In this document: positions 1-5,539 of the stretch, piece after piece | Layout: each line of letters begins with the position of its first letter | How positions within the stretch are numbered: position 1 is the first letter of the stretch | Virus record (IMG/VR): IMGVR_UViG_3300005098_000138 | Coordinates: 1 to 23,312 of that record | DNA: 23,312 nucleotides | Strand: one strand, 5' to 3' | From: a virus | Made by a program: the position numbers and the translations under genes | The notes under the pieces: generated by a model | Told to the model about the DNA's origin: nothing | Databases searched by the model: none | What the model saw: only the letters and a program-made list of their open reading frames with translations

Positions 1-29
1 ATTTTCAGTAGTTTCTTCGGATTTACCTG

Positions 30-58
30 TTGACAATATCGACCTCTTATGGTTCAAT
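30..58 (+). promoter_or_regulatory. sigma70-type promoter for first gene
   Basis: A perfect -35 box TTGACA (30-35) is followed after 17 bases by TTCAAT (53-58), which matches four of six positions of TATAAT. The start site would fall near 65, giving a leader of about 40 nt that includes a purine-rich ribosome site (AGGAAGGAAGG, 90-100) just before the ATG at 104. The -10 box is the weak part of the call. Confidence 0.55.
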
Positions 59-103
59 GGTCGAGTCGGCAAGGCAAGGTCGACTAGAAAGGAAGGAAGG
101 ACG

Positions 104-598
104 ATGGAGAACGAAAAGCTTATTGAAGGATTGAGGATAGCGCTGGCCTACATGAAGGACAGGCTCAGGAGCCTGGAGAACAAGCGCAGTGAGTATGAGG
201 GGACTGAGACTACTCCAGGGCAACGGCGCCGGTATTGTCTGGAGTCCGGCTTAGCTAAAGCCGGGTGGTCAAGAGAGGACATCAGGGCTTTCCAGAAATG
301 GGCTTTGGAGCACGGTGACCTCATCGTGCAGAACGTCAAGGCCAACCTACCTGAGAACGTGAAGGCCGACAAGCTTTTGGACTTCGTGCATCACACAGAT
401 GAGTACGGTTGCCCGGCTGTGTCCACCAAGACTTGCAAGGACGGCACAGGTAGGCTTTGGTTCGGCCTAGACGGCATTACCCGACCGGCCCGGACAAGCT
501 CAGGCTCGATAAAGACTTCACCGGCTGAGGTCAAGCTTGTCGGACTGGAGAACCAGAAGAACCAGAACCAGAAGAACCAGAAGAACCAGAAGAAATAG
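104..598 (+). CDS. hypothetical protein with C-terminal NQK repeats
   Basis: I do not recognise this 164-residue protein. The start is supported by a strong purine-rich ribosome site ending three bases before the ATG. The N-terminal 30 residues look helical and charged (an ENEKLIEGLRIALAYMKDRLR-type segment); the middle is a mixed globular sequence with Cys45, Trp54 and a VHHTDEYGCP stretch; the last 18 residues are a low-complexity run of Asn-Gln-Lys triplets. The gene has its own promoter and a strong terminator, so it is a single-gene transcription unit apart from the structural operon. Its base composition is visibly less GC-rich than that of the virion genes to the right, which may point to a different expression class or origin. 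It could be an early or regulatory phage protein, but nothing in the sequence proves a function. Confidence 0.75.
   Translation: MENEKLIEGLRIALAYMKDRLRSLENKRSEYEGTETTPGQRRRYCLESGLAKAGWSREDIRAFQKWALEHGDLIVQNVKANLPENVKADKLLDFVHHTDEYGCPAVSTKTCKDGTGRLWFGLDGITRPARTSSGSIKTSPAEVKLVGLENQKNQNQKNQKNQKK
551..592 (+). repeat. tandem AACCAGAAG repeat
   Basis: A 9-bp unit AACCAGAAG is repeated four times (551-559, 566-574, 575-583, 584-592) with a 6-bp partial unit AACCAG at 560-565. It is in frame and encodes the NQK-NQ-NQK-NQK-NQK tail of the first gene. Such arrays are prone to replication slippage, so tail length may vary between relatives. Confidence 0.9.
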
Positions 599-602
599 AC
601 CA

Positions 603-616
603 CAAGGCGCGCCTTG
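603..616. repeat. 14-bp perfect palindrome after first gene
   Basis: CAAGGCGCGCCTTG is a perfect palindrome just after the stop codon at 598 and 7 bp before the terminator. It has no loop, so it is better read as a possible protein-binding dyad than as an RNA hairpin. Its function is unknown. Confidence 0.5.
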
Positions 617-622
617 CCGACG

Positions 623-651
623 AGCTCCCGGACGATCCGGGAGCTTTTTTT
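623..651 (+). terminator. intrinsic terminator after first gene
   Basis: A perfect 10-bp stem AGCTCCCGGA / TCCGGGAGCT (623-632 with 636-645) closes on a 3-nt CGA loop, and the + strand then has seven T residues (645-651). This is the canonical Rho-independent form. It isolates the first gene from the structural module. Confidence 0.93.
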
Positions 652-719
652 GCGCCGACGTGGGCCGATGCTGGCCTCTCCGCCTGTTAGGGTTTTGTTC
701 GGCCACGGCCGCGAGCACC

Positions 720-741
720 CATCGGCGCGGACATCGGCGCG
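720..741. repeat. direct repeat CATCGGCGCG x2
   Basis: Two exact copies of CATCGGCGCG occur at 720-729 and 732-741, giving a 12-bp period, and GAACGCGAACC follows. Two sites about one helical turn apart could be a protein-binding iteron pair, but two copies are few and the DNA is GC-rich. Confidence 0.45.
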
Positions 742-877
742 AACGCGAACCCGGCCCCGACCGCGAAAACCCCTGCGGCAGCGGTGCGGTTGACCGACGG
801 CCCCCACGCAAATCTCCAGAACGCCCCTAGCCTTTCCGAAAACCCAAAAATTATACCGCTAAAAAACTTCCGAATAG

Positions 878-919
878 CCCCATCCTCCCCTCCCCCCTAA
901 CTCCCGCTCCCGCCGCCCC
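878..919 (-). other. putative G-quadruplex (minus) / i-motif (plus)
   Basis: The + strand has six C runs of three to six bases (878-881, 887-890, 892-897, 903-905, 909-911, 916-919) separated by 5, 1, 5, 3 and 4 bases. The minus strand therefore meets the usual G3+N1-7 quadruplex pattern with two spare runs. It lies directly beside an AT-rich patch (839-877). Confidence 0.6.
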
Positions 920-1683
920 TTACCTCCCATTCCAGAAACTTTTGCTCACTCCTTTCAAGGACCATCCATTTTTCAGTCATTTTCACATTTCGGCGCTCCG
1001 CAACCCCCGCATTTTCTAGACTTACAAGCACACTTTTCATCCGCTTTCATTTCCTCTGGCGAGTCTCTCTATATCCCCCTCCTAACCCCCTACACATACA
1101 CACATTACACGCACCGAAAACAGGAAAATCTCGTGACCCCCCTTCGCGTTCCTGAAAACCACTTCCCAAATCTCTCGCAACGTCTTTCCGGCCCCGAATC
1201 CTGAATCTATCCGAATCGTACCCGCGCAAAACGCACGTTTCTGCGCAAGTCCTTATTTTACCGTCCGACATATATACCCTCCACAGCCTTTCAGAATCCG
1301 AAATCGTTTTACCACTTTATCTCCCGTCCCCACCTACACTTACGCCTCCTAAAATATCAGACTGGCAATAGAATGCGCCGCTTTTGAACAGAACCCGCAC
1401 TCACCTGAAAAATCATTCCTGCCTCCCATAACCCCCCGCCCCGCCAACAGTTACAATCCAGAAAATCCTAATACCCGCCAAACCTTTCCGACTCTTGACC
1501 AATCCTTGTCCCGTTCGTCCGATTTCATCCCATTCCTATCCATTTCTCGGAAACTTTGCCTATCCCGCCCATCTTACCACCAAACCCCCCATTTCCGTTT
1601 CATCCGCCAACCGATTTTTTCCTGAATCTCCATTCATTTCTGCACAACAATCCGAAAATCTCCATTTCATCCTATTCCGAAAG

Positions 1684-1695
1684 CCGAGGCCCGTG
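1684..1695 (-). repeat. dispersed 12-mer, TCGG form
   Basis: The + strand reads CCGAGGCCCGTG, the complement of CACGGGCCTCGG. It is non-coding and forms a close inverted pair with the copy at 1731-1742. Confidence 0.85.
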
Positions 1696-1730
1696 CCTGC
1701 CACCCCCGCCGCCTGCCTGTCATCCTCCCA

Positions 1731-1742
1731 CACGGGCCTTGG
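1731..1742 (+). repeat. dispersed 12-mer, TTGG form
   Basis: An exact CACGGGCCTTGG followed by a pyrimidine tract. It is non-coding and lies 31 bp upstream of the -35 box at 1774. With 1684-1695 it can form a 12-bp stem with one G-U pair. Confidence 0.85.
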
Positions 1743-1773
1743 TCTCCTTTTCTTCCCAATCTGCAAAATCTTC

Positions 1774-1802
1774 TTGACACGGCTCGCTTTCCGTGCCACA
1801 AT
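1774..1802 (+). promoter_or_regulatory. sigma70-type promoter of structural module
   Basis: A perfect TTGACA (1774-1779) is followed by a 17-bp spacer and CACAAT (1797-1802), which matches four of six -10 positions. A small dyad CACGG / CCGTG (1778-1782 and 1791-1795) lies inside the promoter and could be an operator. The expected start site is near 1808-1810, only a few bases before the ATG at 1812, so the first transcript may be leaderless or translation may begin further in. Confidence 0.6.
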
Positions 1803-1811
1803 ACAGTCGCC

Positions 1812-2411
1812 ATGACAGAAGCCCGAGCCGACAGGCCCGAGAGGGCCGACAGCCTACCGACGCCGAGGACCGCAAACACCGGTCCCGCCACCAATACTAG
1901 TATGCGGAGGGTGGGGCGTTCCGTGCTTCTCGTGTCCGTCGAGAGCCTTGCCGAAGCCCTTGCCGTCTCCCCCCGCGCCGCGCTTCATCTCCTCAAGGCG
2001 CTCTCCGTCCCCACCCTCCGCATGCCACCGTCGTCCAAGAGCCTCAAGCACCGCTACTTCAACCAGGTGGCCCTCGAGCGTGCCCTCTTCGCCATCCTCG
2101 ACGTGGGCGGCCCCGGCTACCCCCCACCCCGCGACTCCGAGCTCCCCGACGCCTACTTCCAGACCAACAAGGCCCGTCGTGCCCTGAAGGACTACACCGA
2201 GCTCACCAAGATGCACCGCTCCAGCGTCCAGGACACCGTGCTCCGCCTCGTGCACGCCGACCGCGTGGACCGCCGGGACCCCGCCCGTGTCCTCCGCGAG
2301 GTCGTCAAACGCACCACCCGCCCCGCCCCTCCCGCACGCTCTCCCGCACGCCCTCCTACACGGGCCTTGGTATCCGGTGGTCCTGATGCCCGGAAGGGGA
2401 CCCCCCGATGA
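1812..2411 (+). CDS. HTH-like DNA-binding protein, possible small terminase or regulator
   Basis: Residues about 40-65 (SVESLAEALAVSPRAALHLLKAL) read like a helix-turn-helix of the excisionase/MerR type, followed by a wing-like basic stretch and a second helical segment to about residue 95. The N-terminal 37 residues and the Pro/Arg-rich C-terminus look disordered. The ATG at 1812 sits at the expected transcription start, so this form would be leaderless. A GTG at 1923 has GGAGGG upstream (1906-1911) and would begin right at the HTH segment, giving about 162 residues. The stop overlaps the next start (ATGA, 2408-2411), indicating translational coupling. As the first gene of the packaging operon with a DNA-binding motif, it could be the small terminase subunit or a regulator of the operon; I cannot decide between these. 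Confidence 0.6.
   Translation: MTEARADRPERADSLPTPRTANTGPATNTSMRRVGRSVLLVSVESLAEALAVSPRAALHLLKALSVPTLRMPPSSKSLKHRYFNQVALERALFAILDVGGPGYPPPRDSELPDAYFQTNKARRALKDYTELTKMHRSSVQDTVLRLVHADRVDRRDPARVLREVVKRTTRPAPPARSPARPPTRALVSGGPDARKGTPR
2359..2370 (+). repeat. dispersed 12-mer, TTGG form
   Basis: An exact CACGGGCCTTGG preceded by A and followed by TATCC, lying in the Pro/Arg-rich tail of the HTH-like gene (read as TRAL). Confidence 0.85.
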
Positions 2412-3211
2412 CAGAGCCGAGCCCGGAACCGAAACCGAAGGTCCAGCGCATCGAGCGCACGCGGCACACCGAGGCCGCCCCTGCCGAGCGCCAGGATGAG
2501 CGTCGGGGCAAGCATCAGGGTAAGACACGGGCCTCGGCCATCGTCGTGCATCAGGGGTTGCCGCTCGCGAAGGACAGGCCGCCCGAGTACGAGTTGCGGA
2601 GATTGCCGGGGTTCCTGGACCCCCACACCATCGATGGCGCCCTGGAGGCGGCCGACTGGGACGTGTCCCGCGAAATCAGGCTGTACGTCGAGATTGCCAA
2701 CGACCCGGCCGTCCCGCCCGCCACCCGCATCAAGGCGTGCGAGGCCATCCACCGGCTCGTCATCAGGGCCATGACCGCCAGCGGCGAGCTCGTCAAGGCC
2801 CAGTACCGACACGAGACGGAGGACGGTTCCGTGGTCACGGTCGAGCGGATGGCCCGCGTCACCCGCGAGGCCCAGGCCGCCCTCGAACTCGCCAAGGATC
2901 CCGAACAGCCTTCCCGGACCGAACGCCCCGAGGAGACTGCCCCAGATAAGGAGACGTTGGATGTCGAGGTCGAACCCGAAATCGAAGCCGAAGCCGAGAC
3001 CGAAGCCGAAGAGGAACATGGACGCGAAGGCGCCGGTGCCCCAAGTTCCGGGGCAGATGGTCCTGCCAGGGGTGGGCTCGCCATCCCTGGCCGCGCCCAC
3101 ATCGACCCCCTCCGCCCCCGCACCCGAACCCGAAACCACGCCGCCGAACAGCCCGGGGCAGGAGAGGGGGGAGAGGAGGGAGAGGAGACTGATTCCGAAG
3201 CCGAAGCCTGA
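2408..3211 (+). CDS. hypothetical packaging-module protein, small-terminase candidate
   Basis: A 267-residue protein preceded by a purine-rich ribosome site (GGAAGGGGA, 2390-2398) and overlapping the upstream stop by four bases. Residues 1-50 are charged and disordered; residues about 60-165 are the globular part, with a segment DPAVPPATRIKACEAIHRLV and helical KAQYRHETEDGS...EAQAALELAK. The first of these resembles repeats seen before large terminases in other phages, so a small-terminase role is possible but unproven. From about residue 185 the protein becomes an acidic low-complexity tail (EVEPEIEAEAETEAEEE) and then a Gly/Arg/Pro-rich stretch. That tail is read from DNA that also encodes the next gene, whose frame has the better third-position GC signature there, so the tail may be a passive overprint. 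Upstream of about 2940 the frame has clean third-position GC. Confidence 0.7.
   Translation: MTEPSPEPKPKVQRIERTRHTEAAPAERQDERRGKHQGKTRASAIVVHQGLPLAKDRPPEYELRRLPGFLDPHTIDGALEAADWDVSREIRLYVEIANDPAVPPATRIKACEAIHRLVIRAMTASGELVKAQYRHETEDGSVVTVERMARVTREAQAALELAKDPEQPSRTERPEETAPDKETLDVEVEPEIEAEAETEAEEEHGREGAGAPSSGADGPARGGLAIPGRAHIDPLRPRTRTRNHAAEQPGAGEGGEEGEETDSEAEA
2526..2537 (+). repeat. dispersed 12-mer, TCGG form
   Basis: An exact CACGGGCCTCGG in the gene at 2408, read as TRAS; it lies in the disordered N-terminal part of that protein. Confidence 0.8.
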
Positions 3212-3557
3212 TACGGCAGCCGGCGCCGGCGTGGAGTTGCCGCCGTGGTATCCGAGGCTCACCAGGCGGGCCATCAGCCTGGCGCTGATGGAGTTGACGG
3301 CGCGCCCCGGCCTCCGCAGTATAATGAATTGGCCGAACGACAACGGTCGTGTCCTGTACAACATCGCCGTCGAGCTCCGGGACAAGGAGCCCGAGACCGT
3401 CATCGAGGGCACGAACCGGCTGCTCGCCGTCTGCGGGCGGCACTACGGGAAGGCTGCACCGGGCCACGTCGCCGCCGCAGCCGCCTGGTATATCGCGGTG
3501 ACGGCCCTGTACCGCCTCCTCCAGGTTGTACTGCCAGAAGCTCAAGCTAGGAAGTAG
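2961..3557 (+). CDS. hypothetical protein overlapping the upstream gene
   Basis: A 198-residue protein of unknown function. The start at 2961 is supported by an ideal ribosome site, AAGGAG at 2948-2953, seven bases upstream; another ATG in frame is at 3018. It overlaps the upstream gene by 251 nt in the +1 frame. Residues 1-90 are low-complexity: a basic Lys-Pro run (KSKPKPRPKPKR) followed by Pro/Ser/Ala-rich sequence. Residues about 92-198 are globular and helical (PPWYPRLTRRAISLALMELTAR, then a Trp/Asn-rich segment and an Ala-rich helix AAAAAWYIAVTALYRLLQVV). The final segment is hydrophobic enough to be buried or amphipathic rather than clearly transmembrane. It ends 14 nt before the terminase start. 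Its position leaves it as another small-terminase or packaging-accessory candidate, without recognisable motifs. Confidence 0.72.
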   Translation: MSRSNPKSKPKPRPKPKRNMDAKAPVPQVPGQMVLPGVGSPSLAAPTSTPSAPAPEPETTPPNSPGQERGERRERRLIPKPKPDTAAGAGVELPPWYPRLTRRAISLALMELTARPGLRSIMNWPNDNGRVLYNIAVELRDKEPETVIEGTNRLLAVCGRHYGKAAPGHVAAAAAWYIAVTALYRLLQVVLPEAQARK

Positions 3558-3564
3558 AAAGTAA
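3554..3564. repeat. 11-bp repeat at left edge of terL
   Basis: GTAGAAAGTAA includes the stop codon of the gene before terL. An identical copy includes the terL stop at 5536-5546. Confidence 0.6.
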
Positions 3565-3571
3565 GACCGGT

Positions 3572-5539
3572 ATGGCTCGGGTGAACAAGACGATGAGGGG
3601 GCCGCTGCCGGTACCGGAGGTGCCGAGGCCCGTTCCGCGTCCCGACCACGGCAACGAGTGGTATCCCCTGCCCCCCGACTACCCCGAGCTCACCAAGGAA
3701 GGTCAGCGGCTCGCCCGCGTCAATGCCTGCATGCTGCGGGACACGCCGGAGGACTTCGTGGCCGCCTGGTCCTTCTTCCGCAAGACGTATCTGGAGCCCA
3801 CACCGCCCGGCTTCTTCTACCGTCGGAAGGTGAACTCCCCTCCCGGCCACTACCAGTGGATTCGGGACATCGCGCAGTACAGCCGGAACATTCATGTGGC
3901 GCCCCGGGGTTCCGGGAAGTCCACCGTGTTCTCGCGGGAGGTGCCCCTCTGGCTGACCCTCACGCGGCCGTACACCAACATCCTTATCGTGTGTTCGATT
4001 CACAGGCACGTCCGCGACAACTTCTCGACCCTGATGCAGCAGTTCACCGACAACGAGTTCATCGTGAGGGACTTCGGGAACCTCCAGCCGGTGCGGAACG
4101 ACGGCTCCGGGCGCCAGTGGTCCCTCTCGATACTCCAATTGACCAACGGGTCGGTCATCCAGGGGTGCTCGGTGGACGGCCGCAAGCGGGGTGGTCGGCC
4201 CGACATCGTGATTCTGGACGACCCGGAATACGACCCGCACGACCCTACCAAGGAAACCGAGCTCTCCGCCCAGCTGGAGCGCCTCCTGTTCCGTGAAATC
4301 TTCGGGATGTTCGACACCCAATACTCGCTGTTCGAGTGGATTGGGACGTTCATCTCGTGCAAGTCGGCCCTCTACCGCGCCTACCTGGGGGAGGACCCCC
4401 GATTCAAGCGGTTCAACCGACGCATCTATGCGGCACGGGCCTCAGACGCCGACGGCAAACCCGTCTACTTCTGGCAGGAGAAGTGGGACGAGCGAGCCCT
4501 CGAAGAGAAGAGGGCGGAGGTGGGTCACGCCGCCTTCGAGGCGGAGTACCAGAACAACCCGGTCTCCGACGAGGCCCGCCTCTTCGTGCTGCATCCCGAG
4601 CTCGCCTGGTACCACGAGGAGGGCGAGAACGTCTGGACGCTCAAGGAAGGCTCCGACGGCCTTCAGCGCGTCACCCTGGCCCGCGACGAGTGGCTCTCCT
4701 CCATGCGGCGCATCATGACGGTAGACATGCGGCACGGCAGTTCGTACAACACCGACTACTCAGGCGCTCTGGTCACGGGCATCGACGTCGACAAGTACTG
4801 GTGGATACTCGACCTCTACCTGGCCCGCTGCTCCCCGAAGCAGCTGCTCCAGAAGATATGGGAGCTCGGGTGCAAGTGGCAGGTGTCGCTCATCGGCATC
4901 GAGTCGGCCGCCGGCCAAATCGCCATGGTCAGTTGGGTCCAGGAGAACCTCGAATCCCTCCTGGAGAAGCACGGGGGTTGGCGGCCTCGGGTCTACGCCA
5001 TCCGGTACCCCTCGCGTGTCGCCAAGGAGGACCGCATCAACGCCCTGGACGCGAAGTTCACGGCGCACGCGGTGAAGCTGCCGGCGGACCGGCGGAACCG
5101 GTGGCCCTTCACCGAACTCATCCGCCAGATTGAGATGTACACGCCGGACGGACGCTCCCTGGCCCACGACGACGCCCTCGACATGCTCTCGATGGTCCTC
5201 TACTGCCCGAGGAGGGCGCCCAACCCCGACGCCTATGAGGGTGCCCAGTCCCGCGACTTCTACGAGCAGTTGGCCGCTGGCGAAATCCTGGATGCCACCA
5301 CCGGGTTGCCGCTGGCCCACGCCGTCGACATATCGAGGGTGCCCCTCCACGTTTTGCAAGAGTTCCTTGACAAGCGGCGCGAAATCGAGGAATATGCCGC
5401 CGAGCGGGGCTCGCGGGTCAGCGCCCTGCGGCGACGCGGTGCGCTGGGCGCCCCGTCGAGGTTGCAGAGCCCCGCCGTCCGCGCCGGGTTGTGGCCGCCG
5501 CGCCCCGCCCACTTGATTCTGAGCGACGAAACACCGTAG
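3572..5539 (+). CDS. terL: terminase large subunit (packaging ATPase/nuclease)
   Basis: This 655-residue protein is the DNA-packaging motor. The ATPase domain has a Walker A motif APRGSGKST at residues 110-118 and a Walker B run DIVILDDPE at 211-219, with the expected acidic pair D216/D217. The C-terminal RNase H-like nuclease shows its acidic residues in the expected order: Asp385 (IMTVDMRHG), Glu444 (LIGIESAAG) and the HDDALDML segment at 532-539. In the family the ATPase pumps DNA through the portal and the nuclease cuts the concatemer. The N-terminal 40 residues are Pro-rich, and about 100 residues follow the nuclease as a charged, Arg/Pro-rich tail that is longer than usual. No strong ribosome site precedes the ATG; the gene follows the previous stop by 14 nt. 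The same 11-mer GTAGAAAGTAA marks its upstream boundary and its own stop codon. Confidence 0.95.
   Translation: MARVNKTMRGPLPVPEVPRPVPRPDHGNEWYPLPPDYPELTKEGQRLARVNACMLRDTPEDFVAAWSFFRKTYLEPTPPGFFYRRKVNSPPGHYQWIRDIAQYSRNIHVAPRGSGKSTVFSREVPLWLTLTRPYTNILIVCSIHRHVRDNFSTLMQQFTDNEFIVRDFGNLQPVRNDGSGRQWSLSILQLTNGSVIQGCSVDGRKRGGRPDIVILDDPEYDPHDPTKETELSAQLERLLFREIFGMFDTQYSLFEWIGTFISCKSALYRAYLGEDPRFKRFNRRIYAARASDADGKPVYFWQEKWDERALEEKRAEVGHAAFEAEYQNNPVSDEARLFVLHPELAWYHEEGENVWTLKEGSDGLQRVTLARDEWLSSMRRIMTVDMRHGSSYNTDYSGALVTGIDVDKYWWILDLYLARCSPKQLLQKIWELGCKWQVSLIGIESAAGQIAMVSWVQENLESLLEKHGGWRPRVYAIRYPSRVAKEDRINALDAKFTAHAVKLPADRRNRWPFTELIRQIEMYTPDGRSLAHDDALDMLSMVLYCPRRAPNPDAYEGAQSRDFYEQLAAGEILDATTGLPLAHAVDISRVPLHVLQEFLDKRREIEEYAAERGSRVSALRRRGALGAPSRLQSPAVRAGLWPPRPAHLILSDETP

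Follow-up and report, generated by a model that had tools for sequence, protein, structure and literature searches.

Results and Discussion

Organisation of the Locus

The window, i.e., the whole stretch of DNA analysed in this work, corresponds to bases 1-23312 of the 37,619-base record of an uncultured virus. The features on which the following sections rely are as follows (coordinates in the window, strand and nature).

104-598, + strand: small gene (164 aa) upstream of the tract, taken from the ORF list
622-651, + strand: intrinsic terminator after the small gene, with an 11-pair stem and a T run (terminator call; inverted repeat I5)
801-1770 (core 801-1678), + strand: G-poor, C-rich non-coding tract, delimited by composition, without period-3 signal and with no ORF above shuffle expectation
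835-1680, + strand: nine TCCGA words (835, 869, 1210, 1264, 1297, 1487, 1518, 1651 and 1676), the core of the relatives' GTCCGATA motif
1684-1742, no strand assigned: inverted repeat bordering the tract on its right, in which a dispersed 12-mer is present twice (CCGAGGCCCGTG / CACGGGCCTTGG)
1774-1802, + strand: sigma70-like promoter, TTGACA-17-CACAAT with TG, near-leaderless (ATG 10 nt downstream)
1812-2411, + strand: winged-HTH protein gene, the first of the late operon (4-fold-site GC skew −0.60)
2408-3211, + strand: small-terminase-like (TerS-like) gene, so named by position (alignment A6; 4-fold-site GC skew −0.43)
3572-5539, + strand: large terminase (TerL) gene (phrog_38, E 9e-62; skew −0.10)

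The small gene upstream of the tract found no match in the PHROG search and just one sub-threshold match in Pfam; its Q/N/K-rich tail is encoded by a short AGAACCAGAAGAACCAGAA tandem repeat (549-600). Downstream of the tract, the sigma70-like promoter was graded as strong and is predicted to drive the winged-HTH/TerS-like/TerL operon. The layout with only a few bases between the promoter and the start codon is common to L190, L008/L188, L189 and L168, and homologues of the winged-HTH gene were recognisable in 53 loci. Residues 31-100 of the winged-HTH protein were modelled by AlphaFold2 with good confidence as a winged HTH, for which the fold search returned a weak Xis/BldC-like resemblance, nothing at E ≤ 0.001, and a best viral match, also weak (E 0.006), that carries the name DNA packaging protein. 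Our preferred explanation is that the tract, which is non-coding, serves as a control region ahead of the packaging/late operon.

Composition and Coding Potential of the Tract

The first-pass annotation of this DNA had described the segment 832-1730 as having about one G in ten and C as its commonest base. This description is accurate: the + strand of this segment contains 23.9% A, 39.0% C, 11.2% G and 25.8% T, and the whole record (37,619 bases) contains 32.2% C and 33.1% G. With its limits set at 801-1770 (about 11% G and 39% C on the + strand), the tract is the sole one of its kind in the 37.6-kb record. The maximal G-poor segment, 801-1678, had a segment score of 114.5, as compared with 9.0 for the runner-up N-free G-poor segment of the record and 13.2 for the best segment among 20 shuffled genomes. 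The GC skew of the tract (−0.55) is more extreme than that of all other 900-nt stretches with a GC content above 45% in the 166 loci that we fetched (1.6 Mb).

The GC content of the tract, 51%, is lower than that of the genome (65%), yet the tract is not A+T-rich. Its content in A (.237), C (.393) and T (.256) is close to what is expected if the genome composition had been thinned of its G (.233,.426 and.225, respectively). As A and T are nearly equal, a loss of G through one simple substitution is not apparent. Hence, of the biased mutation proposed in the first-pass annotation, the general idea stays possible, but plain C deamination is disfavoured, and we rejected it as the only cause of the skew because the matching AT skew is absent.

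The tract had also been regarded as non-coding and devoid of plausible open frames, which agrees with its period-3 power (0.45-0.99 times the mean, versus 30-69 in TerL) and with the length of its longest ORF (74 aa, under the shuffle mean of 93 aa). By contrast, the idea of a long structured transcript did not hold, as neither strand of the tract folds better than shuffles (z 0.38 and −0.13) and the Rfam search of the tract gave no credible match. Neither a coding region nor a structured RNA is thus supported by the periodicity, ORF length and folding data. We nevertheless considered that the tract could be a gene that had escaped recognition, or the decayed remnant of the helicase gene that relatives have near the seam on the minus strand, because minus-strand ORFs with more C than G on the + strand occur in the corresponding area of L168, L191, L217 and L237. 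Besides the missing period-3 signal and long ORF, tblastn with the helicase-type proteins of three relatives produced chance matches alone (E 1.7 or worse), and we regard this explanation as very improbable indeed.

Strand Composition along the Genome and in Relatives

The first-pass annotation had taken G and C to be close to equal in the flanking genes and the skew to be abrupt. The skew in fact has a broader setting, in that the two downstream genes show an excess of C over G at synonymous sites: the 4-fold-site GC skew is −0.60 in the winged-HTH gene and −0.43 in the TerS-like gene, and it is −0.10 in TerL and about zero mid-genome. At the far end of the contig, the 4-fold-site skew reaches +0.68 and +0.62, and the values just right of the tract and at this far end differ from those of the mid-genome genes with p values of 1e-4 to 1e-31. 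The skew is therefore partly a feature of a larger area, forming a gradient that is steepest in value at the gap and has the opposite sign at the far contig end. Judged from base composition, the genome has a single strand-composition seam (G-rich on the left, C-rich on the right), of which the tract is the sharpest edge, on the C-rich flank; the tract's value of −0.55 is best read as the unconstrained part of the seam skew. Taken by itself, the window genome does not distinguish an effect of gene direction from one of DNA strand, as the genes nearest to the seam point away from it, but the relatives allow the two to be told apart.

About 80 relatives were found through the TerL alignments A1 and A3, two of them with a TerL identity near 47-49% and many near 35-40%. 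Nothing useful came from blastn of window 1-3600 against phages, from single-protein scans of viral and genome contigs (TerL, portal, MCP and PolA), or from tblastn searches of phages (MCP and portal) and plasmids (MCP). Eleven relatives (genomes or large contigs) were read whole or in large part, and five of these have 114-123-base end overlaps, as expected of circular assemblies. The + strand of the relatives is mostly G-rich, with a peak just left of one switch to C-rich, and the cumulative skew rises almost continuously apart from this switch. Using 3-kb windows, 10 of the 11 relatives have their largest drop from G-rich to C-rich at a distance of 3.4-9.0 kb upstream of TerL, the next-best drop elsewhere being 1.5-8 times weaker. 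The misfit is G008, and both G003 and G012 fit with 3-kb windows and are ambiguous with 1-kb windows. In several relatives, the + strand genes have a 4-fold skew of −0.29 to −0.69 on the right of the seam and a positive one on the left. Since genes of the same strand differ in sign across the seam, gene orientation is not the cause of the bias, and we rejected an effect of gene direction.

G-poor non-coding tracts also occur upstream of the corresponding operon in L190 (278 nt, 2% G), L188, L177, L191 and L212, and are absent from several other relatives (L185, L186 and L221-L229). A mirror image of such tracts was observed on the early side of L190 (1-1240) and L177 (299-4753), where the + strand has 7-10% C and 35-37% G.

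These comparisons bear on the idea that the tract is a functionless spacer whose composition reflects a mutational asymmetry, either local or coupled to transcription, that has nothing to do with the initiation of replication. Such a spacer would be expected to have what we observed, namely a base content close to that of the genome with G thinned, and a DNA sequence unconserved among relatives save for one weak 41-nt match. However, divergent relatives again show the seam and G-poor tracts in the equivalent position, often together with repeat arrays, and the bias is independent of gene direction; we consider this spacer explanation improbable.

Similarly, we asked how well the tract fits a Rho-loading (rut) region, i.e., an unstructured C-rich, G-poor RNA that would halt upstream transcription ahead of the late promoter. 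The tract resembles the known rut sites, which are C-rich/G-poor C>G bubbles (PMC9160355), in being rich in YC dimers (21 versus 12.7 per 78 nt) and in specifying a weakly structured RNA (−110 kcal/mol over 970 nt for the + strand, versus −245 for the other strand). Furthermore, 97% of the + strand 78-nt windows of the genome with a C/G ratio of at least 3 fall in 723-1770, and the RNA would be an extreme case of a region for Rho to bind. On the other hand, an intrinsic terminator (622-651) already precedes the tract, the 970 nt of which represent about ten times the 70-78-nt windows used in rut scoring, and the excess of C over G extends to the synonymous sites of the translated downstream genes and is genome-scale in relatives. 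A rut function is consequently doubtful, with a low probability in our estimation. For the same reason, i.e., the same bias at synonymous sites of translated genes downstream, we demoted the paired scheme of Rho avoidance by C-poor early transcripts and Rho loading by the tract.

Repeat Arrays and a Possible Replication Start or Stop at the Seam

In relatives, iteron-like arrays of the GTCCGATA motif, with some repeats 16 nt apart, lie at or near the seam (G004, G005, G007, G009 and G012), and the densest GTCCGATA windows genome-wide are those at the seam, alone or tied with arrays further left. Near the array or seam, L008 and L168 also have AAA_25 helicase-like genes, and G005 and G009 have similar genes; the window contig has no replication gene beside the tract and is incomplete on that side, the missing part of the genome being located between PolA and position 1. 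The window contains no exact GTCCGATA array, just degenerate TCCGA words. The latter are related to the CC-N(0-1)-GAAA words of the first-pass annotation, which are real (eight were reported, and we counted nine in 801-1770). TCCGA occurs nine times versus 1.9 expected from dinucleotide shuffles, an excess that we take as no more than suggestive, given that the word was chosen post hoc; these words could possibly be degenerate iterons. Because both GTCCGATA arrays (at the seam and further left) precede promoters in the relatives inspected, GTCCGATA could also be an operator. Four relatives (G004, G005, G009 and G012) carry the second array, at 3-6 kb to the left of the seam; in the three for which we read the sequence (G004, G005 and G009), this array adjoins a conserved AAATTCACGCAGT-like word.

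From the following lines of evidence, we propose, with evenly divided confidence, that the seam marks where replication rounds begin and/or end, i.e., an origin/terminus region of an essentially unidirectional or rolling-circle-like replication. First, there is a single seam. Second, its effect reaches the synonymous sites of genes on both strands. Third, repeat arrays accompany it. We infer from these sequence features the binding of an initiator, the start or stop of replication, its direction, and mutation or selection as the origin of the asymmetry. An initiator would bind the repeats at the seam, and replication would proceed mostly one way round the circularised genome, so that the strand-asymmetric base pressure would change sign at the seam. 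Coding constraint would buffer the genes against this pressure, and the gap, being unbuffered, would display the strongest skew, with the late promoter placed at its right edge.

Concerning polarity, if the leading strand is G-rich, a switch from G-rich to C-rich is what characterises a terminus rather than a bidirectional origin. The polarity of the seam thus appears to fit a terminus, a unidirectional origin (with start and end at one place) or genome ends better than a bidirectional origin. The replication origin suggested in the first-pass annotation receives indirect support, since the tract lies at the one skew switch of the family and relatives bear iteron-like arrays there, but the polarity is that of a terminus or of a unidirectional origin.

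Replication-linked skew switches are already known, and the present one is an unusually strong example in a phage family. In bacteria, skew shift points indicate origins and termini, and rolling-circle replication leads to a continuously rising cumulative skew (PMC3269016, a review). Our phage family is similar to these replicons in its sharp sign change reaching synonymous sites and in a cumulative skew that, this change apart, rises almost without interruption. It differs from them in the local magnitude of the skew (−0.55 for non-coding DNA, with 4-fold sites attaining about ±0.6), in its decay over a few kb, and in the finding of just one strong G-to-C switch per genome. In the Sinorhizobium podovirus AP-20-A, oriC was placed near the minimum of the cumulative GC skew (PMC13299392). 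The likeness resides in a phage of about 50 kb for which one putative origin was assigned close to an extremum of the skew; however, AP-20-A has two broad skew domains with the origin at the minimum, whereas the seam of the family studied here corresponds to a maximum and its C-rich side is short.

The main rival to a replication seam is that the tract holds a packaging start or a physical end of the genome (pac, terminal repeat or cos-like), to which the winged-HTH/TerS proteins encoded next to it would bind, the skew resulting from asymmetric replication toward the ends or from their single-strandedness. We regard it as unlikely. In its favour, the winged-HTH, TerS-like and TerL genes form an operon directly downstream of the tract, the weak viral fold match of the winged-HTH protein bears a packaging name, and the skew peaks on either side of the seam and weakens toward the interior, as linear ends predict. 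In addition, the pac site of the Vibrio phage ICP1 was placed in a 1.3-kb space devoid of ORFs, close to the predicted rolling-circle origin, with the late replication origin in or near this space (PMC7145576). ICP1 and the window phage thus have in common an extensive gap devoid of ORFs, in which packaging may come together with replication, but the evidence in ICP1 comes from read coverage and virion ends, whereas the window phage is known from sequence alone. Against such ends, the long linear contigs G003, G007 and G009 cross the seam and five relatives assemble as circles (headful packaging being still compatible with both), and no terminal repeat or nicking site was identified. Moreover, the exposure of an overhang predicts C-to-T changes with a matching AT skew, which is absent in the tract.

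Beyond these two proposals, a single very steep seam (about ±0.6 at synonymous sites, with a decay over a few kb) at a combined origin/terminus/packaging locus might represent an undescribed replication-packaging mode, neither ordinary theta nor rolling-circle, which we view as a rather unlikely prospect.

Returning to replication start or stop at the seam, if this proposal is correct a simple skew scan would yield the likely origin/terminus, and a natural breakpoint, for this family of uncultured phages of about 50 kb, and the odd base composition would be explained without a new gene or RNA. As the bias is strong and short-range, this phage family is well suited to asking what drives strand asymmetry in phages.

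Dispersed Words

The 12-mer CACGGGCCTYGG occurs in 18 copies in the record (12 on the + strand and 6 on the − strand), for about 0.02 expected per strand. Its copies, which include those at positions 1684, 1731, 2359, 7841, 13863, 24992 and 33769, are found both inside genes and in the spaces separating them, and in several cases two of them form a close inverted pair. Most relatives (G001-G011 and L167) have their own, differing, over-represented word of about 10-12 nucleotides, dispersed genome-wide in both orientations: CCGTCCCCCGTC in G010, CTTCCGGGGTC in G008, CCTGGGACCACC in G001 and CTGCGGAGG in several relatives. Since both orientations occur throughout, we rejected the possibility that the dispersed 12-mers are polar KOPS-like motifs pointing at the seam. 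A CTGCGGAGG-like word, or its complement, was also observed between the −35 and −10 boxes of sigma70-like promoters in relatives (L171:957, L189:3907, L209:3835, L214:2403 and L008:2846), a position which suggests that it may serve as an operator.
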